The position numbers and the translations under genes are program-made. DNA of 43,164 nt. It comes from Candidatus Aminicenantota bacterium. GTDB lineage: Bacteria; Acidobacteriota; Aminicenantia; Aminicenantales; JAFGAV01. Numbering within the stretch: the first letter of the stretch is position 1; each line of letters opens with the position of its first letter. Positions 7,784 to 26,032 of this stretch are shown in pieces. Below the pieces are notes generated by a model. It made no database searches, was not told the DNA's origin, and was given only the letters and a program-made list of their open reading frames with translations. The stretch lies in assembly GCA_016933515.1 (NCBI GenBank), contig JAFGAV010000017.1, positions 1 through 43,164 of the forward strand, written 5' to 3'.

Positions 7784-7798
7784 TCTTCTCAAGATTCA

Positions 7799-7832
7799 GG
7801 AGCCGGGCGGCTTTCCCCAACCGCCCGGCTCC
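7799..7832 (+). terminator. Strong hairpin between pstS and pstC (attenuator-like)
   Basis: Twelve-base perfect arms (7799-7810 and 7821-7832, GC-rich) enclose a 10-base loop, followed only by a short CCTTTTCC tract. A second small inverted repeat (AATCTT/AAGATT, 7782-7796) overlaps the pstS stop. Partial termination, or 3'-end protection of pstS mRNA, is the likely role. Confidence 0.6.
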
Positions 7833-7871
7833 GCCTTTTCCTCGCTTCTTTCCCTGAGAAAAGAAGAGCCC

Positions 7872-7877
7872 TATAAT
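7872..7877 (+). promoter_or_regulatory. Consensus -10 element upstream of pstC
   Basis: A perfect TATAAT ends 19 nt before the pstC ATG. The matching -35 position (about 7849-7854, TTTCCC) is poor. It could be an internal promoter for pstCAB-phoU downstream of the pstS hairpin. Confidence 0.4.
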
Positions 7878-7896
7878 AGAAGCGGTCGGATAAGCC

Positions 7897-8817: not shown

Positions 8818-9665
8818 AGCGCAAGATTGTCCAGTTTCTGGGCTTCATGCTTCTTCGGGTTTGCCTGTATCTCGTTTTGGCTGTCCTCCTGCTTTTCCTC
8901 TTTGACATCATCCGCAAGGGCGGCGGGGTGATGTCTTGGGAATTCCTCACTCAGGCTCCCCGCCGGGGCATGACCGAAGGGGGCGTCTTTCCGGCCATCG
9001 TCGGCACGTTCCTGGTGACGATGATCACCGCCGTGCTGGCCGTGCCCATGGGCATGTTCGCCGCCATTTATCTCAACGAGTACGCCAGGCAGACGCGCCT
9101 GACGCGGCTCATCCGGCTGGCCATCCGCAATCTCTCGGGCGTGCCGTCGATCGTCTACGGGCTGTTCGGCGTCATCCTGTTCGTCAACATCTTCGCCTTC
9201 GGAACCTCGGTTCTCTCGGCCGGGCTCACGCTCGGCCTCCTGACCCTGCCGTGGACGATCACCGCTTCCGAGGAGGCCCTCAAGACGGTGCCCGATTCCT
9301 ACCGTGAGGGCGCCCTGGCCTTGGGCGCCACCAAGTGGCAGTCGATCCGGACAAACGTCCTGCCCTACGCCGTTCCCGGGATGCTGACCGGAACGGTGCT
9401 CGGGCTGGCCCGGGCGGCGGGCGAGACGGCGCCCATCATGTTCACCGGCGCGGCCTTTTTCCTGCCCGTCCTGCCCAGGTCTCTGGGCGACCAGTTCATG
9501 GCCCTGCCCTATCACCTGTACATCATGGCCACCCAGCACCATAACATTCTCAAGGTCAGGCCCCTGGCTTACGGAACGGCCCTGGTGCTCATCGCTTTGG
9601 TTCTGGGCATGAACATGGCGGCCGTCGTCATCAGATATCGCCTCCGGCGGAAGAGAAGGATGTGA
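8814..9665 (+). CDS. pstA: Phosphate ABC transporter permease PstA
   Basis: Second permease subunit of the Pst importer, 283 residues, with about six membrane helices. It carries [19 protein letters not shown], the PstA counterpart of the periplasmic loop, then [11 protein letters not shown] and the EAA loop [14 protein letters not shown] for contact with Pst[21 protein letters not shown] is the family signature. It starts with GTG inside the pstC stop (GTGA overlap) and ends three bases before the pstB ATG, so the order pstC-pstA-pstB is tightly coupled. Nothing unusual is seen. Confidence 0.94.
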
Positions 9666-9667
9666 AC

Positions 9668-10429
<762 letters not shown>

Positions 10430-10459
10430 GCCCTCTGAGGAGGGAGACAAGGAGGAGAC

Positions 10460-11152
10460 ATGGAGCGACAGTTCGACGAGGAACTCAAGAATCTCAGGGC
10501 TCTCCTGATGCGCATGGCCTCTCTGGTCGAGGAGTCGATTGCTCAGGCCGTCCGGGCTCTTAAAACGAGCGACGAGAAGGCGGCCCGCGAAGTCCTGGAG
10601 CGCGAGGATGACGTCAACCTCATGGACATCGAGGTCGACGGATCCTGCCTCAGGCTCCTGGCCCTCAAACAGCCCATGGCCGGCGACCTGCGGTTCATCA
10701 CCTCGGCCATGAAGATCGGGGAGGAACTCGAACGCATGGGGGACCTGGCGGTCAATATCGCCGAGCGGACCCTGGAGCTCATCAAGCTCCCGCCCCTCAA
10801 GCCGTTGATCGACATCCCCCGCATGGCCCTTCTGGCCCAGAATATGGTTCGGGACGTGATCACCGCCTTCGTCAACGGGGACGAAAAGCTGGCCCGCGAG
10901 GTTTGCCGCCGGGACGACGAGGTGGACAATCTCAACGATCAGATTTTCCGAGAGCTTTTGACCTATATGATGCAGGATCCGGGAAACATCAGCCGGGCGG
11001 TGGGCTTGATCCTCATCGGGCGGCATTTGGAGCGGATCGCCGATCATGCCACGAACATCGGCGAGGCCGTTTTCTATCTGGTGGAGGGTAAAACGATCAA
11101 GCACCACATCGAGAGCCGCGACGCGCAGAAAGGCAAGGGGGAAAGCCGATAG
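10460..11152 (+). CDS. phoU: Phosphate signalling regulator PhoU
   Basis: PhoU is a helical cytoplasmic protein that couples Pst transporter activity to the PhoR/PhoB-type two-component system and restrains phosphate uptake. The 230 residues contain the two PhoU repeats, each with the metal-binding pattern E-R-x-x-D-x-A-x-N-I: ELERMGDLAVNIAER near 90-105 and HLERIADHATNIGEAV near 190-205. The start has a strong AAGGAGG ribosome site. The stop TAG overlaps the ATA that may start the following glycosyltransferase. No dedicated PhoR/PhoB sits inside this operon. The nearest candidate system is at 27385-30068. Confidence 0.94.
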   Translation: MERQFDEELKNLRALLMRMASLVEESIAQAVRALKTSDEKAAREVLEREDDVNLMDIEVDGSCLRLLALKQPMAGDLRFITSAMKIGEELERMGDLAVNIAERTLELIKLPPLKPLIDIPRMALLAQNMVRDVITAFVNGDEKLAREVCRRDDEVDNLNDQIFRELLTYMMQDPGNISRAVGLILIGRHLERIADHATNIGEAVFYLVEGKTIKHHIESRDAQKGKGESR

Positions 11153-12147
11153 CGCCGTCGACTCCGATTCCCGGAAAAGTTCTTGCTGTTCGGCTGGGAG
11201 GATTGGGCGATCTCCTGACCGCTTTCCCCGCGCTGGCTCTGCTCCGCGACGCCCGCCCCGATTCGGAATTCACTCTTGCGTGCCGGGAAGCTTACGGCCT
11301 CTTTTTCAGAGAGTGCGGTCTGGCGGAGCATGTCGTTTCGGCCGATTCTCCGATGTTGACCGGTTTGTTCGGAGATTGCGAAAAGGGCTCCCCCCGGCTC
11401 GATCCTTGGCTGGCCCGGTTCGATGAAGTCTGGGGCTGGATGAACGGGGGATCGGGGGCCGGATTGGCGCGCTCCCTGGCAGGACACGGCGCGAGGAACG
11501 TCCGAATCATCGGCCCCCCTCGGCGTTCTTCCCCCCGGCCTTTGTACACGCATTATCTGGAAGAAACGGCTCGGGCCGCCGGCTGTCCTTTCCCCGGTGA
11601 AGAAACGAGCAAAGCGTATTGCCGGCTGAAAGCCTGCCGGGGAGACGGGTCCGGAAGGATGTCCGAGGCGTCCGCTCCGGTCATCATTCATCCCGGAAGC
11701 GGCGGAAAAGACAAATGCTGGCCTTTGGAACGGTTTTTGGAGATTGTGCGCCGATTGTCCGCTCGAGGAGCAGAGGGATTGCTGGTCACGGGCGAAGCCG
11801 AGGAACGCATGGCCCCCGCTCTCTGTTCTTTTCGTTTTCCGGACGGCTGGAATTGGATGCGGCGTCCGCCTCTTCGCCGCCTGGCCGAGCTTCTCGCCCG
11901 TTCCCGGTTTTATCTCGGAAACGATTCCGGCGTCACTCACCTCGCTGCGGCCTGCGGCGCGCCGGTCCTGGCGCTGTTCAAGGAGGAAAACGCCGTCTTC
12001 TGGAGGCCGTGTGGAAACGTCGAAATTTTCTCCGCCGAAAAGATCGGGAATATCAGCGTTGATGTCGTCTGGGAAAAAATTTCTCAGCTGAAAACTGCAC
12101 ACAATCGAGTGCAAACAGCCATATCCGTCTTGTTATCAAAAAAATAG
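11149..12147 (+). CDS. Glycosyltransferase family 9 (heptosyltransferase-like)
   Basis: Predicted ADP-heptose-type glycosyltransferase acting on lipopolysaccharide core, about 332 residues. The N-terminal strand-loop KVLAVRLGGLGDLLTAFPAL and the C-terminal donor-site segments HPGSGGKDKCWP and YLGNDSGVTHLAAACGAPV are the GT9 hallmarks. The start is unusual. TTG 11203 would cut off the conserved first strand and the GG of the GGLGD motif. Upstream to the in-frame stop at 11089 there is no ATG, GTG or TTG. The best candidate is ATA 11149, preceded at 6 nt by AAGGGGGA and overlapping the phoU TAG as ATAG. ATT 11167 is an alternative without a ribosome site. The function is inferred from family; LPS is not otherwise visible in the window. 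Confidence 0.78.
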   Translation: MAPSTPIPGKVLAVRLGGLGDLLTAFPALALLRDARPDSEFTLACREAYGLFFRECGLAEHVVSADSPMLTGLFGDCEKGSPRLDPWLARFDEVWGWMNGGSGAGLARSLAGHGARNVRIIGPPRRSSPRPLYTHYLEETARAAGCPFPGEETSKAYCRLKACRGDGSGRMSEASAPVIIHPGSGGKDKCWPLERFLEIVRRLSARGAEGLLVTGEAEERMAPALCSFRFPDGWNWMRRPPLRRLAELLARSRFYLGNDSGVTHLAAACGAPVLALFKEENAVFWRPCGNVEIFSAEKIGNISVDVVWEKISQLKTAHNRVQTAISVLLSKK

Positions 12148-12902: not shown

Positions 12903-14291
12903 TTAGGAATCGGCCTTGACGGCGGATTCCGCCCGTCCGCGGCGAAGCTTGTAGTGTTTGTAGATCATGAGGCTCAAGGAGATCCACAAGAGGACGAATA
13001 CGATATTGAGCACGGCGAATCGCTCGATGGACAGCCCCAGGAACGTCGTGCCGACGAAGACCGCCAGGGCGGCCAGCGCGTCGCCGCCGCGGACGAAAAA
13101 GGTGTCGATGGCCGCCTTGGCCTTGTATTTTTCCTCCCGGGGAGTGACCAGGAACAGGGCGGCCTTGGTCGTGTTCATCAGCGAGTAATCCGTGCCGTTT
13201 TCAAGGGATTTGACCCACTTGACCAGGAGCAGGGTCGCGCCCATGGAGATGAAGGCATAGCCGCCCAGGGCGATGAAGGGCAGGACGAACAGAGCCCCCC
13301 CGACTCCCAGCCACTTGAATATCCTGGAGACCAGGAAAAGCTGAATGACGAGAGCCAGGGTATTGGTCAGGAACTGGTAATCGGAGAAAAACCCGCCGAT
13401 GAAAACCCCCATGGATTCGGCTTTCCCCTGGGCGACGGCGGCCAGGCCGGCCCGGGTGGCGACGTCGGAAATGATGTATTCGCCTATGGTGTTGATGAAA
13501 TTGTAGACCAGGATGGCCAGGGCGATGAAAAAAAGATAGCGTGTCTTGACCACCAGGCTGAATCCGTCGCCCGGCTTGAGGGGCTGAGTCTGGGCCGCCC
13601 GCTCGGGCGGCTCTTCTCCCGGAGAAAAGGCGACCTCCCTTTTGTGGATGAAGACGGCCAGCACGATGCAGGCCAAGAGCAGAGCTCCCGAAAGAAGCAT
13701 CATATTGTAAAGGCCGAGAGGGCCGATGATGAGCTTGGCCACCCGGCTGCCCGCCACGGCCCCTAGGGTGGCGCCGAAGGCGATCAGGGGAAAGATGCGC
13801 TTGCCCGTCTCGGGCGCGTAGAGATCGTTGGCGAACCCCCAAAACTGGGCCACGACCAAGAGGTTGAAGATGCCGATCCAAATAAAAAACACGATGCCCA
13901 TCACTCCGGCGCCGACTCCGGCCAGGTGAAGGACATAGAATACGGCCAGGTTGGAGACGAAAAACAGAGTCACCCAGGTGATCAGTTTGTGCCGGGAAAC
14001 CTTGGACGCCAGCCAGCTGAATCCCAGAATGACGAAGACGAGCAGGACGGCCTGGGCGCCGCTGAGGTAGCTTTTGATCCGGGGAGCGTCCTTGTCAACG
14101 AGGAGCAGCGCCTCCCGGACCGGCTTGATGAGGTAATAGGCCAGAAGGAGGAGAAAGATGTTCAGGGTGAGAAGAAGCGCCTTGGCCGCCTCGCCGGGCC
14201 GGATGTCGGTGAAAAGGCGGAGAAAGGCATAGCCCGGATTCGGCCGGGATGCCGGCGTCCGGTTTTTTTGCGGGTCGTCTGAGCGGGTCAT
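12903..14291 (-). CDS. Npt1/Npt2-type (ATP/ADP translocase-like) membrane transporter
   Basis: A 462-residue inner-membrane protein with about 12 hydrophobic segments, related to the bacterial/plastid nucleotide transporters (Npt/TLC family). Family-type segments include LLLLAYYLIKPVREALLL, the WGFANDLYAPETGKRIFPLI loop with GATLGAVAGS, and SLMNTTKAALFLVTPREEKYK near 365, where PREEKYKAKAAID is the conserved cytoplasmic loop. It ends after the transmembrane core with only a short basic tail, unlike its two HEAT-fused relatives at 19358 and 21832. Proven nucleotide exchangers come mainly from intracellular bacteria and plastids, so a free-living homologue may carry another ligand. AAAGGAGG precedes the ATG. 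It is divergent from the RsbW-like gene. Confidence 0.8.
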   Translation of the reverse strand: MTRSDDPQKNRTPASRPNPGYAFLRLFTDIRPGEAAKALLLTLNIFLLLLAYYLIKPVREALLLVDKDAPRIKSYLSGAQAVLLVFVILGFSWLASKVSRHKLITWVTLFFVSNLAVFYVLHLAGVGAGVMGIVFFIWIGIFNLLVVAQFWGFANDLYAPETGKRIFPLIAFGATLGAVAGSRVAKLIIGPLGLYNMMLLSGALLLACIVLAVFIHKREVAFSPGEEPPERAAQTQPLKPGDGFSLVVKTRYLFFIALAILVYNFINTIGEYIISDVATRAGLAAVAQGKAESMGVFIGGFFSDYQFLTNTLALVIQLFLVSRIFKWLGVGGALFVLPFIALGGYAFISMGATLLLVKWVKSLENGTDYSLMNTTKAALFLVTPREEKYKAKAAIDTFFVRGGDALAALAVFVGTTFLGLSIERFAVLNIVFVLLWISLSLMIYKHYKLRRGRAESAVKADS

Positions 14292-14499: not shown

Positions 14500-14919
14500 G
14501 TGAAGTCGAGGGAAACGAAGCTTTTCGAGGGTGACCTGTCCGGAGTGGAACAGGCCCGCCGCTTTTTTAAAAGTATCGCCGCCCGTCTCGGGCTGACGGA
14601 GGATTTGGCGTTCCAGATCGAACTGGCCCTGGTCGAAGTCTGGACCAACATCGTCCGGCACGCCTACTCCCTGAAGAAGGGGGATTTCCTCGTGTCTTCA
14701 TGGACCGAGGACGACCGCCTGTATTTCGAGGTCCGGGACGACGGCTCCCCCTTCGATCCGCGCGATTTCAAGGAGCCGGACCTGGAGCGTCGTCTGAACG
14801 ACGGCCAACGCGGAGGATTCGGCTGTTTTTTGACCAGCCGCCTTATGGACGGCGTGGCCTACCGCCGTGAAGACGGGAAGAACATCCTGACCCTTTGGAA
14901 AAGGATCCCTCTTTCCTAG
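14500..14919 (+). CDS. RsbW-like anti-sigma factor/serine kinase
   Basis: A 139-residue GHKL-type ATPase domain protein of the RsbW/SpoIIAB class. These bind a sigma factor, or another partner, and phosphorylate a STAS antagonist. Motifs: N-box IELALVEVWTNIVRHAY with Glu46 and Asn50, G1-box VRDDGSPFDP (Asp80), and the G2-like GGFGCFLTSRLMD (105). The length is that of a single-domain anti-sigma kinase. The start is GTG 14500, and earlier in-frame starts are not evident. Its likely partners in the window are the STAS protein at 18977 and the PP2C phosphatase at 24359. No sigma-factor gene is present, so the controlled output is unknown. Confidence 0.85.
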   Translation: MKSRETKLFEGDLSGVEQARRFFKSIAARLGLTEDLAFQIELALVEVWTNIVRHAYSLKKGDFLVSSWTEDDRLYFEVRDDGSPFDPRDFKEPDLERRLNDGQRGGFGCFLTSRLMDGVAYRREDGKNILTLWKRIPLS

Positions 14920-14997: not shown

Positions 14998-15828
14998 TCA
15001 GTAGAAGACTTTGTCCTCCCCGCCCGCGACTTTGATGATCCTGTCGAGTTCCGTGAGGATCAAGTCGCGCCGGATCATGACCGCCGCCACTTCTTCGTCG
15101 GTCAGATACTCGCCTACGGCGGCTTTGACGCTTTCGGCCGTCAAAGCTCTGAGCTTCTCCACGAAGGCCCGCGGCAGCTCCTTCATTTCCCGGGGCCCTT
15201 CCTTGAATTTGTCCGTGTAGATCAGGGATTTGGTGAATTTCTTGCTCGTCCGGAAGGAGCGGGAGTGGTCGATGAGGATGAGCCGCCAGTCCTCAGTGAT
15301 CAGGAAATTGTTTTGGTGGCGGTCTTCGTTGGCGATCAAGTTGTCGAAAGCCCGCTGCAGGTACAAGGCCCGGTTCCACGGGAAGATCTTGTAGGAAGGC
15401 GTCTTGATTTTTTTGGTTTCCTTGTCCCTGAGGCTCATCATCACCTTGGCCCAGATCTGAAGCGAGCCGCGGTTCTCCTTGAAACGGCGCTCGATCGTGG
15501 CCGGCACCATATAGAGCTCCAGGAGCCTGTCCAGGCGGTAGGCCGCCACTTCCCACTTCCAGCTGTCGGGATACCGGCCCGCCCGGACGTCGATCCCCTT
15601 CCACAGGGCGAAATTCTCAAGATCTCCCAGCTTCAACGTCAGTTTCCAGGGGCTGGTCACCGCCTCGCTGCTGACCATCTGCTCCTGGCCCATGATGTCC
15701 GCTTTTTCCAGGAATTCCTCCCATTTCGGCTGTTCCGCCGCTTCCTCGGGAGTGAACTGTGCCGCGGCCGGAGCGGCCAGAATGAGACAGGCGGCGGCCG
15801 CGGCCGTGAAAAAGAGCTGCTTTCTCAT
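14998..15828 (-). CDS. Secreted HipA/FAM20-like kinase homologue, paralogue A
   Basis: A 276-residue protein with a signal peptide ending AAAQ (residue 24). It has the landmarks of atypical kinases of the HipA/FAM20/PI4K group: ALWKG with a candidate ATP-anchoring Lys77, WEVAAYRLDRLLELYMVP with Glu93 (compare the AEIAAFHLDRIL-type helix of FAM20), RGSLQIW, then FDNLIANEDRHQNN with candidate catalytic Asp169 and Asn173/174, and LILIDHSRSF with metal-binding Asp187. The reading as a kinase rests on these motifs only; substrate and activity are unknown. ATG 15828 has AGGAGG at 6 nt, while the upstream GTG 15834 would abut it. It is last of four minus-strand genes behind a secreted PPP-type phosphatase. 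About 30-40% of positions look shared with the next paralogue by eye. Confidence 0.7.
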   Translation of the reverse strand: MRKQLFFTAAAAACLILAAPAAAQFTPEEAAEQPKWEEFLEKADIMGQEQMVSSEAVTSPWKLTLKLGDLENFALWKGIDVRAGRYPDSWKWEVAAYRLDRLLELYMVPATIERRFKENRGSLQIWAKVMMSLRDKETKKIKTPSYKIFPWNRALYLQRAFDNLIANEDRHQNNFLITEDWRLILIDHSRSFRTSKKFTKSLIYTDKFKEGPREMKELPRAFVEKLRALTAESVKAAVGEYLTDEEVAAVMIRRDLILTELDRIIKVAGGEDKVFY

Positions 15829-15945
15829 AATCACCCTCCTTTTTTTGATTCGATTCTATCCGAAATTGCGTCAGGAATCATCAGGCTCAAGCCGGGCGGA
15901 AATCCTTTCGGCGGCCGGAGCAGGGTGCGCGCGAGAGAGCGGGGG

Positions 15946-16782
15946 TCAATACAGCACACGGTCCTCTCCCTGTTCCTTGATCATGAGAGCGATTTCATCC
16001 AGGAGAAGACGCCGGCGGGCCAGGACGGCTTGGATTTCGGTTTCGGTCAGGAACGGTCCGACGGCTTGATCAAGCTTCGCCCGGTCGAGTCCGCGGATGG
16101 CCTCCACCATCGCCCGCGGGAGGAGCCGGAACAGGAACGGGCGCCCGTCATCGCCGGACTTGATTCCGTTCCGTCCGTTCATCAGGCGCTTGAAATGCCG
16201 CCGGGAGGAGCGGAAGGATCGGGAGTGGTCGATGGCAATCGTCCTCCAGTCCTCGGTATAGAGAAGGTTCTGCTGGGTCCGGTCTTCGTTGGCGATCAGG
16301 CTGTCGAAAGCCCGAATGATGTATTTCATTCTGTTGATGCCGTCCCAGGCCGTTTCGGGGACGGGAATCCGCTCCTCCATGACCTTGAGCAGGGAATGCT
16401 TGACCGAGACCCAGAACTGGAGGGAGCCCCGTCGGCCCTGAAATTCCCTTTCGACCGTGGGCGGGATCATGCCCAGTCCGAGGAGCTTGTCGATTTCATA
16501 GGCGGCGATCTCGTATTGCCATCCCTCCAGGAATCCGGATCTCTTGCCCGACGGGTTTTTCCACAATCCCCTGGCTTCCAGACCGTCCTTCCTCAGAGTC
16601 AGGCGAATGGGTTTGGTGACGCCCTCGCCCACTTCCTCCCATTTGACGATTTCGGCCGTCTTCAGGAATTCTTCCCACAGCGGTCTCTCGGCCGCCTCGG
16701 CCGCCGTGAATTGGGCGCCGACCTCCCCGGCCGCGACGAGGAAAACAAGAACGAAAGGCCAAGCTCGGATTCGCATTTTCAT
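15946..16782 (-). CDS. Secreted HipA/FAM20-like kinase homologue, paralogue B
   Basis: A 278-residue paralogue of the 14998-15828 protein. The signal peptide ends GAQ, and the mature start FTAAEAAERPLWEEFL nearly repeats that of paralogue A. Key residues are all present: Lys75 in RGLWKN, Glu91 in YEIAAYEIDKLLGLGMIP, RRGSLQFW, Asp167 and Asn172 in DSLIANEDRTQQN, and Asp185 in TIAIDHSRSF. The His after the catalytic Asp-Arg in A is Thr here. The C-terminal helix ends DRVLY, as in A (DKVFY). ATG 16782 has GGAGG upstream; the frame stays open to 16950, but that stretch lacks a ribosome site and would mask the signal peptide. It probably acts in the periplasm or outside the cell. Confidence 0.7.
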   Translation of the reverse strand: MKMRIRAWPFVLVFLVAAGEVGAQFTAAEAAERPLWEEFLKTAEIVKWEEVGEGVTKPIRLTLRKDGLEARGLWKNPSGKRSGFLEGWQYEIAAYEIDKLLGLGMIPPTVEREFQGRRGSLQFWVSVKHSLLKVMEERIPVPETAWDGINRMKYIIRAFDSLIANEDRTQQNLLYTEDWRTIAIDHSRSFRSSRRHFKRLMNGRNGIKSGDDGRPFLFRLLPRAMVEAIRGLDRAKLDQAVGPFLTETEIQAVLARRRLLLDEIALMIKEQGEDRVLY

Positions 16783-16946
16783 CCCCGCCTCCCGGACACG
16801 CTTGTCTTCACCGTGAGCTTTGGGGCTATCATAGTCAAGACAAAAAAAAATTGCAAACAATCGGCCGGCGCCGGGGCGCCGCCGCTTTTTTTCTGTGCGC
16901 GCGGTCGTTCGGGGGATTCCGGACGTCTGCGCACCGAGGAGGGAGG

Positions 16947-17756
16947 TCAAGGACGATAGAGGACCGCGGCTTCTCCTTTTTCCGCGATCAGGCGCTTGAT
17001 TTCGTTCAGGAGGAGCAAGCGCCTTTGGAGCAGGGCTTCAAGCTCCTCGGCATTGAGCAGGCTTTTCAGCCGGGCGCGGACCGCATCGTCGTCCCATTCG
17101 TCCGACAGAGAGGCCAGAACGCGGCGCGAGCAGCGCCGGAGCGGATAGTCCGTCAGGAGCTCGGCTGAGGGAGCAAAGGCTTCGGAAAAATCCACCCTCA
17201 TGGGCCGCCAGGAATCCGTTTGGAAAATGACGTCTCCCAGATCCTGCCGAGGAGCGAAGACCAGGTGCTCGAGAACGAGAATCTCGTCCAGCCGGTCCCC
17301 GTAGGCCTGCGGGTCGGGAGGCCGGAGGTTTTTATTCAAGCGGGATTTTTCGGTTTCCACTCCATCGAGGAAAAGCTGCAGGGAGCCGGCCCGGCCTTCG
17401 ATGGACCTTTCCACCGTCGCGGGCACGAGTCCCAGGCCCAGCAATTTGTCGAGCTCATAGGCAGCGAGCTCATAGGCGCAGCTGTCCGGCATGATGGCCG
17501 GCCGGCTTCGGCGGATGGACTTGAAAAACGCCCGCCGGGTTGCCGTCCCGTCGCTCAGGGTGACCAGCCAGGCGTTGGTCCGCCCGTGCTGATGCATCTT
17601 TTCCACGGCCGTGATGTCCGCCTCTCGGAGAAAGGTTTCGAGCTCCTCCCGGGGATCGGAGGGAGTGGGTTGAAGAGAGGCCCGGCACAAGGCCGATGCG
17701 CCTCCGAGGAGAATCAGGCAGACCCAGAGGCCGAGCCGAGTCTTTTTATTCATCAT
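16947..17756 (-). CDS. Secreted kinase-like protein, degenerate paralogue C
   Basis: A 269-residue third member of the tandem family, with a signal peptide (hydrophobic to about residue 22). N-lobe landmarks are kept: Lys79 in AFFKS, Glu96 in YELAAYELDKLLGLGLVP, GRAGSLQLF. The catalytic loop is not: where A and B read IANEDR-x-x-x-N, this protein reads FAPRQDLGD, although the following VDFSEAF retains the metal-type Asp179. It may be a pseudokinase or an allosteric partner for A and B, or a binding protein. The start overlaps the end of the phosphatase gene by 11 nt, with GGAGG upstream and two adjacent ATGs (17756 or 17753). The C terminus AAVLYRP matches the family ending. Confidence 0.65.
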   Translation of the reverse strand: MMNKKTRLGLWVCLILLGGASALCRASLQPTPSDPREELETFLREADITAVEKMHQHGRTNAWLVTLSDGTATRRAFFKSIRRSRPAIMPDSCAYELAAYELDKLLGLGLVPATVERSIEGRAGSLQLFLDGVETEKSRLNKNLRPPDPQAYGDRLDEILVLEHLVFAPRQDLGDVIFQTDSWRPMRVDFSEAFAPSAELLTDYPLRRCSRRVLASLSDEWDDDAVRARLKSLLNAEELEALLQRRLLLLNEIKRLIAEKGEAAVLYRP

Positions 17757-18762
17757 TCACCCTCCAAACCTGGTAACAGCCCGCTTCAATCAACAGAGCG
17801 CTCAGCGGTCCCTGGTAGTAAGCGGAGATGCCGGTATCGATGGCCCAGACTTTCCCGCCGAAACGCCTCATGGCTGTTGCGGTGGGCACCCGCAGAACCG
17901 TATGCCCGATGACGATGTGGCGGGCCTGCAAGTTGGCCAGGATGCCGTCCACTTCGTCCTCGAACAGCGCCTCGTCCTGCAGGGCAAGATCGCGGTACCA
18001 AAGCGGTCCCTCCCGGGCGTAGAGCACCTGGGGCTGGAACATCCCGTTCTTCATGACCAGGCGCAGCTCTCGACGCACCGTGTCGTTGATCTTTTCCAGG
18101 GACCAGAGGGAGTATGCGGGACTGATGCCGCCGTGGACAAAGACCGTGTCGTTGATTTTGATGACGGTGTTGAGATCGGCGATCCATTGGCCGTATTGCC
18201 GGCGGAAAAACTTCAGGTACTGTCTCCGGCCCTCCGGATCGTTTTGGAGAATCTCCGCCCACAACGCCCGCCGTTCCTCGGCCGAAATCTCGGTGCGGCC
18301 GTCGCCGCGGCGCCGGAGGGCCTCGTTTTCTTTCTCCTTGATGTAATCCTCGGGGAGAAAGGACCGGAATTGCTCCGCGGTGACGTATTCGGGATAATCG
18401 AAGGAGATGCCCGAGATGTTCATCATTTCGTGGTTGCCGATGAGAACATGGACCCGCCCGCCGGCGGCCTCGGCTTCTATTTCTAGGCGTCGGAGAAGGT
18501 CGAAGATCGCACGGGCGTTGGGCCCGCGGTCCATGATGTCCCCGATCTGGACCAGATGCGTCTCCCCGGCCGCCCAGTGGAGCTCACGATCCACGACTCC
18601 CGTGCCGATCAAGATGGCCGTGAAGGCGTCATAGTCGCCGTGAAGGTCTCCGACAGCCATGATCTTCTCGACGCCCGTCCAGACGCAAGGGATTTCGGCG
18701 CGAGCCGCGGCGCTGATAAGGAGGAGACACGCGGCAAGGAGCCAGACGGTTCTTTTTCTCAT
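17746..18762 (-). CDS. Secreted PPP-family metallophosphatase (Shewanella-like type)
   Basis: A 338-residue calcineurin-like phosphoesterase with a signal peptide ending AARA (about residue 22). The two-metal site is complete: GDLHGDYDA (Asp39, His41), GDIMDRGP (Asp75), GNHEMM (Asn110, His111), VHGGISP and VIGHTVL. The GDxHG/GDxxDRG/GNHE spelling is that of PPP protein phosphatases, and the secreted bacterial form resembles Shewanella-like phosphatases. It could remove phosphate from proteins or small molecules in the periplasm. It is first in the four-gene minus-strand operon and overlaps kinase-like paralogue C, suggesting that it opposes the kinase-like proteins (inference). ATG 18762 is chosen because it begins the signal peptide; the frame extends to 18807. 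Confidence 0.82.
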   Translation of the reverse strand: MRKRTVWLLAACLLLISAAARAEIPCVWTGVEKIMAVGDLHGDYDAFTAILIGTGVVDRELHWAAGETHLVQIGDIMDRGPNARAIFDLLRRLEIEAEAAGGRVHVLIGNHEMMNISGISFDYPEYVTAEQFRSFLPEDYIKEKENEALRRRGDGRTEISAEERRALWAEILQNDPEGRRQYLKFFRRQYGQWIADLNTVIKINDTVFVHGGISPAYSLWSLEKINDTVRRELRLVMKNGMFQPQVLYAREGPLWYRDLALQDEALFEDEVDGILANLQARHIVIGHTVLRVPTATAMRRFGGKVWAIDTGISAYYQGPLSALLIEAGCYQVWRVNDE

Positions 18763-18976: not shown

Positions 18977-19324
18977 ATGGACATCAAAAAACGAGAAAAA
19001 GACGACATCACGATCTTCGACATCCAGGGCGAAATCAGGCGCACGGATATCGCCGAGTCGACTCTTCATGAGCTTGTCAAGGACCAGTTGGATCTCGGCA
19101 AAAAGCACATTTTGCTGAATTTCGACAAAGTGGAGTTCATCGACAGTTTCGGTGTGGGCGAAATTCTGGCCAGCTACATCTCCACGCACAACCTGGGCGG
19201 GCAGCTCAAAATCGCCCGCATCTCCAAGAAGCTGTTTCTGGTTTTTCAGATCACCATGCTGACCAAAGTCCTGGAAATCTTCGACGAAGAAGAATCGGCC
19301 CTGCAGAGCTTCCTCAAGGAATAA
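18977..19324 (+). CDS. STAS-domain anti-sigma factor antagonist
   Basis: A 115-residue single STAS domain of the RsbV/SpoIIAA class. The strand-turn VEFIDSFGVGEILA carries Ser57 at the position phosphorylated by RsbW-type kinases. When dephosphorylated, such proteins bind the kinase and release its partner. The RsbW-like kinase at 14500 and the PP2C phosphatase at 24359 are the obvious local partners. It is first in a four-gene operon with two large transporter-HEAT fusions and the phosphatase. A GGAGGG lies 12 nt from the ATG, farther than usual. Confidence 0.88.
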   Translation: MDIKKREKDDITIFDIQGEIRRTDIAESTLHELVKDQLDLGKKHILLNFDKVEFIDSFGVGEILASYISTHNLGGQLKIARISKKLFLVFQITMLTKVLEIFDEEESALQSFLKE

Positions 19325-19357: not shown

Positions 19358-21835
19358 ATGCGGACAGGACGCCCCTTTCGATGGCCGCCGCGCCTCCCCG
19401 GCGTCAAGAGGGGAGAAGAAACGCCGGCCGTTCTCCTTTTTCTGCTCTTTTTCCTCATCACCGCGCCGTTCAGCATTTTTAAAAGCATCCGGGACGCCAG
19501 CTTCCTGACCGAGCTGGGTTCGGAGAATCTTCCCCTCGCCTACGCCACGGCTTTTTTTGTCGGCCTGGCGGTCGCTCTCCAGGCCAAGCTTCAGGCCCGG
19601 GTCTCCCGCCGCGCGCTTCTCTCCGGGAGCATGATGTTCTTCTCCCTGACGGGCGCGATTTTCGCCTTGCTGCTACAGATGTCCGGAAAGTGGCTGGCGC
19701 TGGCTTACTGGGTTTGGGCGAACATTCTCATCGTCTCGCTCATGACCCAATACTGGATGCTGGTCAACGACATTTTCAATCCCCGGGAAGCCAAACGGCT
19801 CATCGGCTTCATCGGCAGCGGAGGCATCCTGGGCGGCATCGCCGGCGGTCTGTTGACCGGCTTTCTGGCCGAGTCGTTCCCGCTGGGCATCCTGTTCCTG
19901 GGAGGAGTGCTGCTCTTGGCCGCGATCCCCGTCATCCTTCGGCTGACCGGCCGGGGAAGGCCGGGGGGGGAACCGCGCGATTCCCGCGCGGCGGAGACGG
20001 AAAACCGGGACGCGTCCTTGCGTCAAGAGGGGTTCAAATCCTGTTTCGACATCGTCCGCCGAAACGACTATCTGCGTCTTCTGGCCGGAATCGTCCTTCT
20101 GACCGGATTGATATCGACGTTCGTCGACTGGCAATCGAAGGCCGTGATCGAGATGACCGTTCGGGGGCATTTGGCCTCGTTCTTCGGCTGGTTCAACGCC
20201 GGATTGCTGATTTTTTCCTTTTTCCTTCAGATCCTGGGCACGAGCCGCATTGTCGACCGCTACGGCATCCGCAGCCTTCTGCTGTTCTATCCGGCCGTCA
20301 TCCTCATCTTCACCCTCGGCCTCTCGGCCTGGCCCGTCTTGGTGCTGGCCGTGGCCTTGAAGGGTGGGGACAAAAGCCTGTCTTATTCGATCAACCAGTC
20401 CGCCCGGGAGCTTCTCTATTTTCCCGTCCCGCCCGAGCAAAGGGTCCGCGCCAAGGTCTTCATCGACATGTTTCTCAACCGTTTCTCCCGGACGGCCGGC
20501 GCGATCCTGCTTCTGGCGGCGTTCGCCCTTCCCTGGCCGTCTCCGTTGCAGGCGGTCGGCATTTTGTCGGTTCTCACCCTGGCGGCCTGGATCGCGCTCA
20601 ATCTGAAAGCCGCCTCGGCTTATGTCCGCATCGTGAAGGACAAGCTCCGCGGCCGCTGGGACAGGGGGGACAGGGTGGTCGAGGCCGAAGTGGACGTGGG
20701 GTTCGCCAAGACGGTTTTCGATCTGATCGAGACACGGCGCCGCAGTCCCGTTCTTTTCAGCCTTCATCTCTATGACTTGATGCGAAAAAAAAAGCTGACG
20801 CCGGACATTCGGGCCATGCTTCTCTCCGAGCCCGGCGATCCGCGCTTCACGGCGCTGGGCGCCCTTTTTGAGGCCGGGGCCGAAGCCGCCGCTTCCGCGG
20901 CCGGCTTGGAGGCCGAGGACGCGGCGCTCGAGCAATTCGTCCGCGAGGTCATGGGACTCGAAGTTTACGGTCAGGTCATGGAGGAGTATCTGGCCCGCGC
21001 TCTCGAGCGGGGGGGGGCAGACGATCCCGTGACTCGGATGGAGATCGCCAAGGCCCTGGGCCTGATGCCGCCCCGTTCGCCCCTTGTCCGCCGGCTTGAA
21101 GAGCTGCTCGAGGACGAGTCCGAGGACGTCGTCCGCTACGCGTTGGAGAGCGCCGGGCGGCTGGGTCTGCGCGAACATGTCCCGGCCGTGGTCCGGCGCC
21201 TCGGTCATCCCCGGCTTCAAGACGCGGCGGAAGAGGCGTTGATGCAATACGGGCCGAGAATCACCGGCGGCTTGCTCGACATTCTCCTCGACTCTTCCGA
21301 GCCTCCGGCCGCGAGGAGGAAGGCCGCCTCGATTCTGGGCGGCATCGGCGATCAGGACGCCGTGGACGGGCTTTTGTTCTCGCTCGGCGCGGTTTCCGGG
21401 AAAATCCGGGATGAAGTTCTGGACGCCCTGGACAGGGCCCGTTCCGCGGGCGGAGTCATCCGTTTCGACCGGAACCTCGTGCTCGCCCATTTGGCGGAGG
21501 AATTCAAGCGCGTCTACAAAATTTTCATCGCCGAGGCGCGGACGCGGAAAGAAGGAAAAGACGACCCTATGCGTAAAGGCTGGGCGTCCGGCCTTGTGCT
21601 CGGAGTTTTCAAGATCCTGGGACTGGCCTATCCGCGGGAAGACGTGTTCAAGGCCTACAAAAACTGGCTGTCGGGGACTCGCGAATCCGTGGCTTACGCA
21701 CTGGAACTCCTGGACAATTTCCTGTCCAAGAGCGTTCGCGACAGACTGTTTCCCCTGCTGGAGGATCATTCCTTGAAGGACAGGCTGCGTTTGATCCGCA
21801 GCCGGCTGAAGAACGGCGGGGAGCTGAGGCCGTGA
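19358..21835 (+). CDS. Npt-type transporter fused to a C-terminal HEAT-repeat domain (first)
   Basis: An 825-residue protein. Residues about 22-420 form a 12-helix transporter-like core of the Npt/ATP-ADP translocase type: LIGFIGSGGILGGIAGG, KGGDKSLSYSINQSARELLY, FPVPPEQRVRAKVFIDMFLN. The latter parallels the PREEKYKAKAAID loop of the 12903 gene. After a linker, about 545-690 is built of HEAT-like helical pairs (ARRKAASILGGIGDQDAVDGL), followed by a helical C-terminal domain. The cytoplasmic half could sense or dock partners. The ATG has no good ribosome site and lies 33 nt after the STAS gene. The stop overlaps the GTG of the next gene. Transport substrate unknown; a sensor role without transport is also possible. 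Confidence 0.78.
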   Translation: MRTGRPFRWPPRLPGVKRGEETPAVLLFLLFFLITAPFSIFKSIRDASFLTELGSENLPLAYATAFFVGLAVALQAKLQARVSRRALLSGSMMFFSLTGAIFALLLQMSGKWLALAYWVWANILIVSLMTQYWMLVNDIFNPREAKRLIGFIGSGGILGGIAGGLLTGFLAESFPLGILFLGGVLLLAAIPVILRLTGRGRPGGEPRDSRAAETENRDASLRQEGFKSCFDIVRRNDYLRLLAGIVLLTGLISTFVDWQSKAVIEMTVRGHLASFFGWFNAGLLIFSFFLQILGTSRIVDRYGIRSLLLFYPAVILIFTLGLSAWPVLVLAVALKGGDKSLSYSINQSARELLYFPVPPEQRVRAKVFIDMFLNRFSRTAGAILLLAAFALPWPSPLQAVGILSVLTLAAWIALNLKAASAYVRIVKDKLRGRWDRGDRVVEAEVDVGFAKTVFDLIETRRRSPVLFSLHLYDLMRKKKLTPDIRAMLLSEPGDPRFTALGALFEAGAEAAASAAGLEAEDAALEQFVREVMGLEVYGQVMEEYLARALERGGADDPVTRMEIAKALGLMPPRSPLVRRLEELLEDESEDVVRYALESAGRLGLREHVPAVVRRLGHPRLQDAAEEALMQYGPRITGGLLDILLDSSEPPAARRKAASILGGIGDQDAVDGLLFSLGAVSGKIRDEVLDALDRARSAGGVIRFDRNLVLAHLAEEFKRVYKIFIAEARTRKEGKDDPMRKGWASGLVLGVFKILGLAYPREDVFKAYKNWLSGTRESVAYALELLDNFLSKSVRDRLFPLLEDHSLKDRLRLIRSRLKNGGELRP

Positions 21836-24315
21836 GCGGCGCGGACGGACGCCTTTTTCGGCTGCTCAAGCGGGCGGTGGACATCCGGCCCGAGGAGACG
21901 GGGGTCGTCGTCCGGATGTTCTTTCATTTTTTCCTCATCACGTTCACCGCCTACGTCATCAAGCCGGTCAAGCTGTCGCTCTATCTCACCTTCCTGACCG
22001 CCGATCGTCTGCCGTACGCATATTTGCTCACCGCCTTGCTGATGGGGCTGGCCGTGTCGCTCAACTCCCGGCTCCTTTCCCGCCTCAACAGGCGGGCCTA
22101 CATCTCATGGAGCCTTCTTTTCTTCATGGGAAACCTCCTCGTTTTTCGCTGGCTGTTCGGCTTCCACTGGCCGTGGGTTTCGATGCTTTTCTGGTTCTGG
22201 TCCGATCTTTTCATCGTCACGGCGGTCATGCAGTTCTGGATGGCGGTCAACGACCGGTTCCATCCGCGTCAGGCGCGCCGTTTGGTCGGATTTTTCGTCA
22301 GCGGCGGCCTCTGGGGGGGCGTGGCCGGGGCCCTCGTCGCCTCGCGGCTGGTGCGTCTGATCGGAACGGAAAATCTGCTTCTCGTCTGCCCCGCATTCCT
22401 GGCCGGAGCCTTCGTCCTTGTCCGCCACCGGGACGCCGCCGGACAGCCCGAGGAGAGCGAAGCGGCGCCCGAAAACGCCTCGGCCCCGAAGAAGACCGGA
22501 TACGCCGGGAGTTTTCGCATCCTCCGCCGGAGCCGCTACCTTCGGCTGCTGGCCGCTCTCGTGGCCGCAGGCATCGTGGTCACCACCCTGGTGGATTTTC
22601 AATTCAGCTCCGCGGTGGAGGCCGCGCTGCCTCTCAAGGACGCCCGGACCTCGTTTCTCGGCACCTTCTTTCTGGGCCTGCTGGTCTTTTCCACCCTTCT
22701 CCACCATCTGTTGTCCGGCCGCATCCTCAAGCGCTACGGGATCTTGGCCGCGCTGATCATCCCGCCGGCCGTGCTGTTCCTCGGCTCGGCCGCCGTTTTC
22801 TTCGTCCCCGCCGGGAGTCTTCTGTGGTGGGCCGTGCCGGTCAAGGGCCTGGACAAAAGCCTGACCCACACGATCAACCAGTCCGTCCGCGAACTGCTCT
22901 ACATCCCCGTTCCGGCCGATGAAAAGTACAAGGCCAAGGCCTTCATCGATATGTTCGTCAACAAGTTCGCGGACGGCCTGGCCGCCGTCATGCTTCTCGC
23001 TCTCCCCCTGTCCCTCAAGGGAGTGAGCGGCCTCACGGCGTTCTTTTGTCTGGCCTGGGCGGCCCTGGCGGCGCTCATCACCAAGGAATATGCCGAGGTC
23101 GTCAAGCGCCACCTCAAAATTCAGTGGGAGGACGCCGATCGCCTGATTCTCGACCGCATAGACGTCGACACGACCCAATTGGTCTTCGACACCCTTGAAA
23201 GCCGCGGGCGCAGTTCGGTCCTTTACGCCATGAACCTTTACGAACTCATTCGGCGGGAACGCCTGACGCCCGAACTGAGGAAAATCATCGCTCAGCGCTC
23301 GGGAGAACTCAGAGCCGGGGCGATGGATTCTCTTCTCGACGTGGACGGCGAACCGCTCTTTCCCGATACGGACGACGTCCTGCCGGAGGAAACCCTTGAC
23401 GCTCAAGTCCGCGAGATCCTGGACCTCGGCGTTTATCGGCAGGTCATGGGCCGGTATCTGGAAGACGTGGCGAAGGAGGCCGGGCCGAACTCGGAAACGG
23501 CCCGGATGGAGGCCGCCAAAGCCCTCGGCCTGATGGACCCCGGGTCGCCTCTGGCGAGGAACCTGGCGAAATTTCTGCGGGACGAATCCCCCGAGGTGGC
23601 CGTTTACGCCCTGAGGAGCGCCGGACAGCTGAAACGGCGGGATTTGTTGCCGCCTGTCCTGTCCTGTCTGTCCCGTCCGGCTCTCTCTCAAGCGGCCGTT
23701 CTGGCCTTGACCGAATACGGAGACAGAATCGTGGGCGCGCTCAAGGATTACCTGGCCGATCCGGAGGAGGATCTCAGGATCAGGCGTTTGCTGCCCGATG
23801 TCCTGGCCAGGATCGGGACTCAGCGCGCGGCCGACGCGCTCCTTTCCGAATTTCGAAAGGCGGGCTCGAGGTTTGAGGCCGAGCTCATCGAGGCCCTGGC
23901 CAAGCTCAAGGTCTCCCGGCCGGAGATTCGATTCGACGAGACCGTCGTTCTCGAAGGCGTGAAGCGGCAGCTCCGGACGGCCTACGGCGATCTGGAAAGA
24001 TATCACGATCTCAAACCGGGCGGGAAAAAAGAGGGCCGGAGGCGCGACCTGGAGCTCATGCTTTTCAAAACCGTCAAGAGCATTTTCGCCCTTCTGGGCC
24101 TGATCTATCCGCCGGAAGACATCCGCCGGGCTTACCAGAATCTTCTGGCCGGGACGAAGAAAGCCATCGATTATTCCGTCGAACTCCTCGACAGCCTCCT
24201 GCACAAGGACATCAAGCCTTTCCTCCTGCCCATGGTGGAAGATCTCCCTCTCGACGAGAAAGCCAAGTCCGCAGGCCGGATCCTGAAAGCCCTGAACAAA
24301 GCGTCGGCGTCTTGA
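21832..24315 (+). CDS. Npt-type transporter fused to a C-terminal HEAT-repeat domain (second)
   Basis: An 827-residue paralogue of the preceding protein with the same architecture and almost the same length. The membrane core shows FLITFTAYVIKPVKLSLYL, LVGFFVSGGLWGGVAG, KGLDKSLTHTINQSVRELLY and IPVPADEKYKAKAFIDMFVN. The cytoplasmic half holds HEAT-like units (TARMEAAKALGLMDPGSPLARNL matches RMEIAKALGLMPPRSPL in the first copy) and ends in the same helical module (LGLIYPPEDIRRAYQNLLAG versus LGLAYPREDVFKAYKNWLSG). It starts with GTG inside the stop of the first copy, so the pair may form a heterodimer made in equal amounts. Function inferred only from family. Confidence 0.78.
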   Translation: MSGADGRLFRLLKRAVDIRPEETGVVVRMFFHFFLITFTAYVIKPVKLSLYLTFLTADRLPYAYLLTALLMGLAVSLNSRLLSRLNRRAYISWSLLFFMGNLLVFRWLFGFHWPWVSMLFWFWSDLFIVTAVMQFWMAVNDRFHPRQARRLVGFFVSGGLWGGVAGALVASRLVRLIGTENLLLVCPAFLAGAFVLVRHRDAAGQPEESEAAPENASAPKKTGYAGSFRILRRSRYLRLLAALVAAGIVVTTLVDFQFSSAVEAALPLKDARTSFLGTFFLGLLVFSTLLHHLLSGRILKRYGILAALIIPPAVLFLGSAAVFFVPAGSLLWWAVPVKGLDKSLTHTINQSVRELLYIPVPADEKYKAKAFIDMFVNKFADGLAAVMLLALPLSLKGVSGLTAFFCLAWAALAALITKEYAEVVKRHLKIQWEDADRLILDRIDVDTTQLVFDTLESRGRSSVLYAMNLYELIRRERLTPELRKIIAQRSGELRAGAMDSLLDVDGEPLFPDTDDVLPEETLDAQVREILDLGVYRQVMGRYLEDVAKEAGPNSETARMEAAKALGLMDPGSPLARNLAKFLRDESPEVAVYALRSAGQLKRRDLLPPVLSCLSRPALSQAAVLALTEYGDRIVGALKDYLADPEEDLRIRRLLPDVLARIGTQRAADALLSEFRKAGSRFEAELIEALAKLKVSRPEIRFDETVVLEGVKRQLRTAYGDLERYHDLKPGGKKEGRRRDLELMLFKTVKSIFALLGLIYPPEDIRRAYQNLLAGTKKAIDYSVELLDSLLHKDIKPFLLPMVEDLPLDEKAKSAGRILKALNKASAS

Positions 24316-24358: not shown

Positions 24359-26032
24359 ATGGCCAAGCTGTACGTTTACCCCAAAAGAGGCGAGTCGTTC
24401 ACGATTCCCTTCGAAAGAGAGAAAATCACGTTCGGGCGGAGCGCCGACAACACGCTTCCCCTCACCGACCCCTTCTGCTCCGGCCATCATGCCGTCCTGA
24501 CCATGGATCAGGGCCGCATTCGCGTGCGTGACCTGGGCAGCAAGAACGGCGTGTTCGTCAACGGCAAGAGGATTCAGGGCGAGGTCGAAATCCGGTCCGG
24601 AGACGAGATTCTCATCGGTCAGACCCGGATGTCCGTGGACCGCAAACTCCTGTTCAATGTCGAAGTGTCCGACGGGCCCAGTCCCTCCACGAGCTTCAAC
24701 ACCGTCATGAAGCTCAACGACATCCTGGTCAAGCCGGAGAGCCGGACGACCACGCGTGCGGCCCCCCTCGGGGACCTTGAGAAGATCCGGTCCGAGCACC
24801 GGCTCTTCGCCGTCATGAGCGAGGTCAGCAAGGCCCTTCTTCTGCACCGTCCCCTGAACGAGCTTCTGGAACACATCATGGAGTTGATTTCCCAGAACCT
24901 GCCCATGGACCGGGGGGCGCTGTTCCTTCGAGAGGGAAGCCCGGAACAGCTCTTTCCCAAGGTGGTCCGCATCAACGACAAAAGCCTGGCCGGCCAGAAG
25001 ATGCAGCTCAGCCGTTCGATCGTCGACATGGCCTTTGAGCAGGAGCTCGCCGTCCTGTCCCGGGACGCCCTGTCCGACCCCCGGTTCCGCGCCCGGGACA
25101 GCATCATCACCGCCCATATCAAATCCGCCGTCTGCGTGCCGTTGTGGGACAACGAAAAAGTGATCGGCATCGTGTATGCCGACCGGACCTCCCTGACCGA
25201 ACCGTTCGATGAGGAGGACTTGAAGCTTCTGACTCTTCTGGCCAACCTGGCGGCGGTCAAAATCGAAAACGCGCGCCTTGTGGAAAGAGCCCTGGAAAAC
25301 GAGAGGATGGAGCGGGAGCTCGCCCTGGCGGCTCAGATTCAGCGCGACCTTCTCCCCCGCGGAAGCCCATCTCTTGAGGGATACGAGATTTGCGGATTGA
25401 ACCTGCCCTGTTTCGAAGTGGGGGGGGATTATTACGATTTCCTGACGATCGACGAGGACCGTCTGGGGGTCATCATCGGCGACGTGTCGGGCAAGGGCGT
25501 CGGGGCCGCCCTGCTCATGGCCTCGCTGCGCGCCTCCCTCCAATCCGAGATTTCCGCCGGTTATGACCTCGCGGTCATGACTTCGAGGCTCAACAATTTC
25601 GTCCACCGCAGTTCGGCGTCCAACTGCTTCATCACGTTCGTTTTCTGCGAGATCATCCTCAAAACGGGCGCGGTGCGCTACGTCAACGCCGGGCACAATC
25701 CTCCGGCGGTGCTCAGGCCGAAGGGCGTCATCGAGCGTCTGGGACCCACGGGCCTCTGCCTGGGGATGTTTCCCGCTTCGACCTACGAGATCGGCGCCTC
25801 CCGCTTGGAGAAGGGCGACGTCATTCTCCTGTTCACCGACGGGCTGATCGAAAGCCGGAACAAGGCCGGGCAGGAAATGGGAGAGCAGAAAATCCTCGAT
25901 TTCCTGAAGCGCAACGTCAAGCGCCCGGCTCCCGAGCTTGTCAAGGATCTCGAGGCGCAATTCCAGGACTTCACCGCCGGCGTCAAGCCTTTCGACGACA
26001 CGACTTTGGTCCTCATCAAAAAAACGTCCTGA
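24359..26032 (+). CDS. FHA-GAF-PP2C (SpoIIE/RsbU-like) serine phosphatase
   Basis: A 557-residue cytoplasmic signalling protein with three domains. An N-terminal FHA domain (about 22-90, with GRSADN, SGHHAV and GSKNGVFVN) binds phosphothreonine peptides. A GAF domain spans about 155-305 (SAVCVPLWDNEKVIGIVYAD). A helical linker ELALAAQIQRDLLP leads into a SpoIIE-type PP2C phosphatase (340-555) with metal ligands in EVGGDYYDF, GDVSGKG, LFTDGLIES and DDTTLV. The linker and catalytic core are those of RsbU-type phosphatases that dephosphorylate STAS antagonists; the STAS protein at 18977 is the likely substrate. The FHA domain suggests control by a Ser/Thr kinase such as the one at 32629 (inference). 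Confidence 0.9.
   Translation: MAKLYVYPKRGESFTIPFEREKITFGRSADNTLPLTDPFCSGHHAVLTMDQGRIRVRDLGSKNGVFVNGKRIQGEVEIRSGDEILIGQTRMSVDRKLLFNVEVSDGPSPSTSFNTVMKLNDILVKPESRTTTRAAPLGDLEKIRSEHRLFAVMSEVSKALLLHRPLNELLEHIMELISQNLPMDRGALFLREGSPEQLFPKVVRINDKSLAGQKMQLSRSIVDMAFEQELAVLSRDALSDPRFRARDSIITAHIKSAVCVPLWDNEKVIGIVYADRTSLTEPFDEEDLKLLTLLANLAAVKIENARLVERALENERMERELALAAQIQRDLLPRGSPSLEGYEICGLNLPCFEVGGDYYDFLTIDEDRLGVIIGDVSGKGVGAALLMASLRASLQSEISAGYDLAVMTSRLNNFVHRSSASNCFITFVFCEIILKTGAVRYVNAGHNPPAVLRPKGVIERLGPTGLCLGMFPASTYEIGASRLEKGDVILLFTDGLIESRNKAGQEMGEQKILDFLKRNVKRPAPELVKDLEAQFQDFTAGVKPFDDTTLVLIKKTS

Follow-up and report, generated by a model that had tools for sequence, protein, structure and literature searches.

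Four minus-strand genes at positions 14,998 to 18,762 of contig JAFGAV010000017.1 from Candidatus Aminicenantota bacterium (GenBank assembly GCA_016933515.1; Acidobacteriota), together with nearby genes of the NTT (ATP/ADP-carrier) family, would constitute a phosphorylation system that operates outside the cytoplasm, comprising two FAM20-like kinases (K1 and K2), a PPP-family phosphatase as the eraser (PP), a likely pseudokinase (K3) and a supply of ATP through the NTTs; this reading is given a probability of about 0.58. The window, meaning the whole stretch of 43,164 nucleotides that was analysed, is an entire contig of a 2.37-Mb draft genome, for which assemblies of Candidatus Aminicenantes are the closest relatives bearing a name. 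Its gene content, linkage, gene fusion, the predicted fold of K2, the catalytic residues, the loss of an Asp in the K3 clade and the co-occurrence with NTTs were computed directly, whereas export of the proteins, outward transport of ATP by the NTTs, the writing and erasing of phosphate, the role of K3 and control of the NTT-HEAT carriers by a partner switch are inferred. A first-pass annotation of the same sequence had proposed that the locus writes and erases phosphate outside the cytoplasm, a proposal supported by the sequence comparisons and the structure model; it described the genes as they are found here, but overlooked the genes of ATP/ADP-carrier type that accompany the system.

In animals, secreted proteins are phosphorylated by FAM20 kinases in the Golgi. 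The periplasm is generally considered to be free of ATP, so that a bacterial equivalent would need a source of it. The locus unites predicted-exported FAM20-like kinases, an eraser and an ATP/ADP-carrier family in a single co-inherited set and thereby opens the question to testing, and the link to ATP carriers raises the interest of the locus above that of the earlier claim. The parts are relatives of known kinds, and their combination was not found in the literature: among the titles and beginnings of abstracts listed from open-access articles (preprints not included), neither an NTT-supplied secreted kinase system nor a bacterial PPP-FAM20 fusion was described.

Gene Order and Predicted Export

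As the first-pass annotation had reported, the four genes all lie on the minus strand and are read in the order PP (17746..18762), K3 (16947..17756), K2 (15946..16782) and K1 (14998..15828). The end of PP and the start of K3 overlap by 11 bp (17746..17756, minus strand), with a GGAGG just upstream of the K3 ATG, an arrangement that likely reflects translational coupling; in relatives, PP and K3 occur as a single fused open reading frame.

The N-termini of PP, K3, K2 and K1 were all positive in a home-made signal-peptide heuristic (not SignalP), in agreement with the signal peptides previously assigned to all four proteins. Among the 119 relatives listed highest for each kinase, 114 of those of K1 and 115 of those of K2 were positive as well, against none of the internal windows (0/483 and 0/487, respectively). 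These results suggest, without proving, that PP, K1–K3 and their relatives are exported.

Kinase Family and Its Resemblance to FAM20

K1, K2 and K3 are paralogues, as had been claimed: K1 shares 47% identity with K2 (E = 4e-63) and 31% with K3 (E = 4.5e-20), and the three are the sole matches to K1 in the draft genome at E ≤ 0.01. A total of 3179 relatives of K1 were found at E ≤ 1e-3. Two alignments were built, one (A1) of 107 rows, consisting of 99 of 240 listed kinase relatives and 8 proteins from the window and related loci, and one (A3) of 69 of 120 listed fused phosphatase-kinase relatives. In the kinase-domain alignment, K1 and K2 retain the Lys, the Glu, the Asp and Asn of the catalytic loop and the Asp of the DHS motif, so that the full set of atypical-kinase residues read from their translations is borne out.

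A structure model of K2, predicted with 107 aligned sequences (pLDDT 90.5, pTM 0.87), has a kinase fold, and the outcome of an unrelated fold, which would have spoken against the earlier proposal, did not occur. When structures were ranked by Z, FAM20 entries occupied ranks 1 to 9 (Z = 20.6 to 18.6), followed by PI4KII (18.3), Helicobacter pylori CtkA (16.6) and HipT/HipA (11–12.7). A Foldseek search with the same model returned FAM20 as its first four matches and PI4KII-alpha as the fifth. By this predicted model, which was made for K2 only, K2 belongs to the FAM20 fold, and FAM20 is the best match among the kinds named earlier (FAM20, CotH and HipA). A profile of the kinase family compared with PDB sequences matched FAM20A (1e-4), a hydra Fam20 xylosylkinase chain (5e-4) and FAM20C (0.011 and 0.022). 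The first-pass likeness to HipA/FAM20-type kinases thus stands for FAM20; HipA and HipT have a kinase-like fold in common with K2, but their match is far weaker than that of FAM20, and a HipA-type toxin kinase is therefore ruled out as the closest kind. No CotH structure was named among the 50 matches listed for the K2 model, an absence from the list that proves nothing.

Glu213 of ceFam20 is described as the special acidic residue of FAM20 kinases (PMC5865150). The equivalent acid, five positions ahead of the helix-C Glu, is Asp or Glu in all 107 rows of A1 and Asp in 67 of the 69 rows of A3. In K2, E86, E91, D167 and D185 correspond to this acid, the helix-C Glu, the loop Asp and the DFG-type Asp, respectively.

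Pfam gave sub-threshold, kinase-like matches to PI3_PI4_kinase, HipA_2, ABC1 and Fam20C. The scores of K1 and K2 against Fam20C (PF06702; 14.1 and 11.3 bits) are under the curated cut-off of 26.8; hence, the proteins are named FAM20-like and not FAM20 members. Sequence similarity to HipA_2 (PF20613) and to the SCO1664 family (TIGR03843) is weak and extends over the kinase core, with scores well under the cut-offs (18.0 and 16.6 bits against 27 for K1 and K2 with HipA_2; 38.7, 44.3 and 34.9 against 172.4 for K1–K3 with the NCBIfam model). Some of the listed kinase relatives carry a precomputed PF20613 or PF00454 annotation.

Two related loci show unusual kinase genes (handles beginning with L denote fetched relative loci, and those with G genomes of the phylum comparison). 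In L076 (6287-9422), a phosphatase gene lies between two kinase genes, both of whose products have Gln in place of the Lys and Asn in place of the helix-C Glu and retain both Asp residues. In L050 (7907-9196), K1 has a gap at the catalytic loop, where LIAN is directly followed by RMILIDH, representing a deletion or an assembly fault.

K3 as a Likely Pseudokinase

Of the three kinase-like proteins described earlier, K1 and K2 have the complete set of residues examined, and K3 is likely a pseudokinase, since Arg occupies its loop Asp position. Among 74 kinase domains, this Asp is absent from all 15 K3-type rows and present in 58 of the 59 others, the last row being gapped there. The 15 K3-type rows form one clade with full support (100/100) in the kinase tree, which has thus lost a catalytic residue conserved in its paralogues, and in 15/15 loci the K3-clade gene adjoins PP or is fused with it. 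FAM20A is described as a pseudokinase that activates FAM20C (PMC7948968), and by analogy K3 may play a parallel role. The two differ in their lesions: the K3 clade has lost the catalytic Asp and adjoins or is fused to a phosphatase, whereas FAM20A has Gln for a Mn-binding Glu (PMC7948968).

Phosphatase and Phosphatase-Kinase Fusions

PP scores 47.1 bits against PF00149 (cut-off 21.5) and its translation contains the five PPP motifs, consistent with the complete PPP metallophosphatase originally described. Its nearest solved relative among PDB sequences is the cold-active protein-tyrosine phosphatase of Shewanella (2z72, E = 2.4e-37), a PPP-fold enzyme of the Shewanella-like phosphatases; phosphatases of the PP type differ from it in sharing an operon, or a single chain, with a FAM20-like kinase. 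A structure search with the model of a fused protein returned a list filled by PPP chains.

The fused relatives retain each of the seven PPP residues in 68 or 69 of the 69 rows of A3. By simple patterns, GDxHG was found in 96, GDxxDRG in 97 and GNHE in 101 of the 120 proteins listed in the fused-protein search, and GNH[ED] together with NxDRxxx[ND] in 88 of the 120. In the kinase tree, the fused genes are found at separate places (4 changes of label, of which at least 2 are forced). Such proteins would represent a probable exported kinase-phosphatase in a single chain. Fused proteins were identified in Gammaproteobacteria by the names given in the source, and a search of plasmid records yielded two partial metallophosphoesterase matches only, with no fused relative aligned over the greater part of the query.

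NTT Carriers and Their Association with the Kinases

Three genes of the window encode members of the NTT family, with PF03219 scores over the cut-off of 21 bits: the single-domain TLC1 (12903..14291, minus strand; 48.7 bits), and the NTT-HEAT proteins TLC2 (19358..21835, plus strand; 43.9 bits, HEAT_2 45.8 bits) and TLC3 (21832..24315, plus strand; 45.1 bits, HEAT_2 34.1 bits), the start of TLC3 overlapping the end of TLC2. TLC1 is below the cut-off of TIGR00769 (58 against 387.2 bits). A profile of 11 TLC1-type proteins matched the PDB entries 9j3n (ADP,ATP carrier protein 1; 6.4e-14) and 9j3j (chloroplastic ADP,ATP carrier; 3.1e-7), with no other match below 0.1. The carriers of the window and of related loci share with known NTT/TLC carriers the profile match, the PF03219 score and the NTT-HEAT and NTT-HEAT-cNBD (cyclic-nucleotide-binding domain) architectures. 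NTT-HEAT and NTT-HEAT-cNBD proteins occur in many bacteria, and the functions of these fusions are called unknown in an article whose excerpted text speculates on ATP transfer by them but not on kinases (PMC5381601).

Of the 15 K3-clade loci, 10 have a TLC1-type gene placed between K3 and K2 or K1 (in L006, only a piece of the gene was seen); in the window and L004 this gene follows K1. In L075, of another class, kinase, PP and NTT-HEAT genes follow one another head to tail, all in the same orientation. HEAT repeats were present in all six NTTs that were scanned near such genes outside the class, and three of the six (L071, L072 and L082) also had a cyclic-nucleotide-binding domain. The proteins ending in this domain, encoded near fused phosphatase-kinase genes, lie at L071 6550-9804, L072 11199-14408 and L082 2748-5930.

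The association was surveyed across 297 genomes of the phylum of the window, with K2 as the kinase query and PF03219 for NTT; the NTT-kinase link described here applies to that phylum. The kinase was found in 59, PP in 68 and NTT in 77 of the 297 genomes. Of the 59 kinase genomes, 52 also had PP and 57 had an NTT (Fisher 3e-41 for NTT, a value that is not a true probability, as the genomes are related). At the genus level, NTT was present in 39 of the 41 kinase genera against 54 of 167 genera overall, and at the family level in 24 of the 25 kinase families. In the 19 genomes of the window's order, 11 had all three families, 1 had NTT alone and 7 had none.

Physical linkage was counted over listed places only, which cover 58 of the 59 kinase genomes (G113 has no listed kinase place); pieces of one gene were counted once, and some weak PP places were excluded, including that of G196, which is on another contig. 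PP lies within 10 kb of the kinase in 37 of 50 genomes (37/51 with G196), and the conserved phosphatase-kinase linkage that the earlier proposal called for is therefore present in relatives, up to gene fusion. An NTT lies within 10 kb of the kinase or PP in 26 of 56 genomes, against about 1.2 expected at random. A chromate transporter used as a control in the same genomes showed no enrichment (25/113 with NTT and 16/59 with the kinase).

Two observations bear on the spread of these loci. L005 and L007 are very similar kinase loci from assemblies labelled Clostridiales and Chloroflexi, labels that seem likelier to reflect mislabelled or mixed assemblies than transfer. L077 (G113), outside the window's order, combines a K3-type fused gene with NTT-HEAT, STAS, FHA-SpoIIE and RsbW genes, which suggests transfer of the whole set.

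Proposed Mechanism

In the proposed mechanism, signal peptides would direct PP and K1–K3 to the periplasm, and inner-membrane NTTs would trade ATP from the cytoplasm for ADP from the periplasm. On the assumption that the cell is free-living, ATP is higher inside, so that net export of ATP would result. With the exported ATP, K1 and K2 would phosphorylate secreted or envelope proteins, or possibly a glycan, and PP would reverse this phosphorylation. K3 would tether PP and the kinases or tune them, much as FAM20A, itself a pseudokinase, acts on FAM20C, and the cytoplasmic RsbW, STAS and FHA-SpoIIE proteins may control whether the NTT-HEAT carriers are active. A protein substrate is favoured because the nearest solved relative of PP is a protein phosphatase; a glycan or lipid is possible.

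More tentatively, with odds that we place somewhat short of even, free-living bacteria may possess ATP-driven extracytoplasmic phosphorylation, in which NTT export, FAM20-type writers, a fused or coupled PPP eraser, a linking pseudokinase and an RsbU/W/V-type switch of the ATP supply act together. If true, this would be a bacterial counterpart, and possibly the source, of phosphorylation in the animal secretory pathway, and would assign a function to the NTT and NTT-HEAT proteins of free-living cells.

The FAM20 kinases of the animal secretory pathway (the protein kinase FAM20C, the xylosylkinase FAM20B and the pseudokinase FAM20A) are among the closest known systems, from which the window kinases differ in being bacterial and about 250 residues long when mature. 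Several observations weigh against the proposed system. K1 and K2 are under the Pfam cut-offs for both Fam20C and PI3_PI4_kinase. FAM20 enzymes are disulfide-bonded, whereas mature K1 and K2 contain no cysteine (0 to 4 Cys in the first 60 rows of A1) and so lack the conserved disulfides. The lowest FAM20 entries tie with PI4KII in the structure ranking (18.6 against 18.3), the individual stretches of the profile match to FAM20 are all weaker than 0.05, and a search of the PDB with the single sequence of K2 gave no match at E < 0.5. The signal-peptide result is weaker in the fused set, where 82 of the 120 listed proteins were positive, compared with 22 of 1562 internal windows; 15 of the 120 lack an initial Met. 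The loop Asp is retained in 64 of the 69 fused kinase parts of A3, and those of L084 and L085 have His for the Lys and Gln for the Glu and look degenerate. PP was not detected in 7 of the 59 kinase genomes, no NTT was detected in two of them (G077 and G099), and in 30 of 56 genomes no NTT was detected within 10 kb. CotH, a family of secreted-kinase type used as a second control, was mildly linked both to NTT (14/32, p = 0.016) and to the kinase (13/59, p = 0.0035), and shared ecology may therefore account for part of the NTT-kinase association. According to PMC5381601, every NTT whose function has been characterised comes from a parasite or an organelle; those of the window differ in being genomic partners of predicted-exported kinases, for which ATP export is proposed.

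Alternative Explanations

FAM20B phosphorylates a sugar (xylose) and PI4KII a lipid (phosphatidylinositol), which makes the protein substrate uncertain. The exported kinases might likewise act on an envelope glycan or lipid, from which PP would remove the phosphate; we regard this as unlikely but worth taking seriously, as the eraser is a PPP enzyme that, among solved structures, is closest to a protein-tyrosine phosphatase, and as many proteins combine the PPP domain and the kinase in one chain. Genes for a possible substrate were sought by clustering neighbours over 46 loci. A GT9 glycosyltransferase gene has relatives near the locus in 4 of these, and its cluster did not turn up in the remaining 42, a weak argument given that most neighbour clusters are unannotated. 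That the kinase-fold proteins instead perform AMPylation or glutamylation, with PP acting on unrelated phosphoproteins, appears quite improbable: such activities are noted among kinase-like proteins (PMC10870513) and ATP delivered by NTTs would serve AMPylation too, but in K1 and K2 the Lys, Glu, loop Asp/Asn and DHS Asp occupy their ordinary positions and the FAM20-specific acid is retained, and a PPP eraser on the same chain suits phosphate removal.

It is also conceivable, though distinctly unlikely, that the NTTs import or exchange nucleotides for another purpose, such as salvage, NAD transport or signalling, under a regulator shared with kinases that use traces of ATP or another donor. 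One NTT is known to carry NAD (PMC5381601), NTT-HEAT genes are flanked by STAS, RsbW and FHA-SpoIIE genes, and 20 of the 77 NTT genomes lack a kinase of the K1/K2 family; against this stand the near-universal presence of NTT in kinase genomes, its linkage far above random expectation, the lack of association of the control transporter and the position of the TLC1-type gene within the K3-clade loci. A merely incidental linkage, arising from mobile or clade-specific neighbourhoods with no functional dependence, would explain why, in the window's order, the set is present or missing as a unit, but is judged very improbable, as the association persists at the genus and family levels, the partners persist while gene order varies, and the fused genes lie in separate parts of the kinase tree. 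The fused proteins with possibly inactive kinase domains mentioned above are encoded at L084 3677-5702 and L085 1376-3775.

Regulatory and Other Neighbouring Genes

Three further genes of the window encode proteins of the partner-switching kind: a STAS-domain anti-anti-sigma-like protein ahead of TLC2 (18977..19324, plus strand; PF01740 48.2 bits, cut-off 22.6), an FHA-GAF-SpoIIE (PP2C-type) phosphatase after TLC3 (24359..26032, plus strand; SpoIIE 168.1, FHA 73.8 and GAF 65 bits) and an RsbW-like HATPase of the anti-sigma kinase type, convergent with K1 (14500..14919, plus strand; PF13581 97.6 bits, cut-off 27.4). STAS, HATPase_c_2 and SpoIIE proteins are thus encoded together, as in the RsbU-RsbW-RsbV partner switches, from which the window locus differs in that these genes are interleaved with the NTT-HEAT and kinase genes. 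Across the 46 loci under comparison, 15 contained a cluster joining relatives of the RsbW-like and FHA-SpoIIE proteins, and 12 contained STAS relatives. Because a kinase or PP match was the criterion for fetching a locus, these counts indicate recurrence and not enrichment.

Among the other neighbour clusters, an antisense gene resembling phytase-like or SdiA-regulated lipoprotein genes (Pfam on the L061 copy) precedes K2 in five loci (L057 9658-10521, L061 10232-11095, L005 7908-8747, L006 8069-8914 and L008 8080-8991) and has no counterpart in the window; its product is a possible substrate or regulator. A histidine-kinase cluster was found in 6 of the 46 loci.

No RNA match was obtained in the window with Rfam at the gathering score, a 78-nucleotide stretch 3′ of K1 folds no better than shuffled sequences, and scans for promoters and terminators yielded nothing beyond consensus matches. 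The gene immediately 3′ of the FHA-SpoIIE gene (26117-27244) encodes an ARPP-1 domain protein (ARG and rhodanese-phosphatase-superfamily-associated). Upstream, at 6857-11152, the window contains a PBP-type solute-binding protein gene and an apparent phosphate-uptake set, whose open reading frames have relatives in L004, L052 and L067 and include translations that we take to be PstB-like and PhoU-like. This region is followed by a GT9 heptosyltransferase-type gene (11203-12147), which belongs to an open reading frame cluster common to L004, L052, L067 and the window; a GT9 gene and phosphate-uptake-like genes occur in 4 of the 46 loci.

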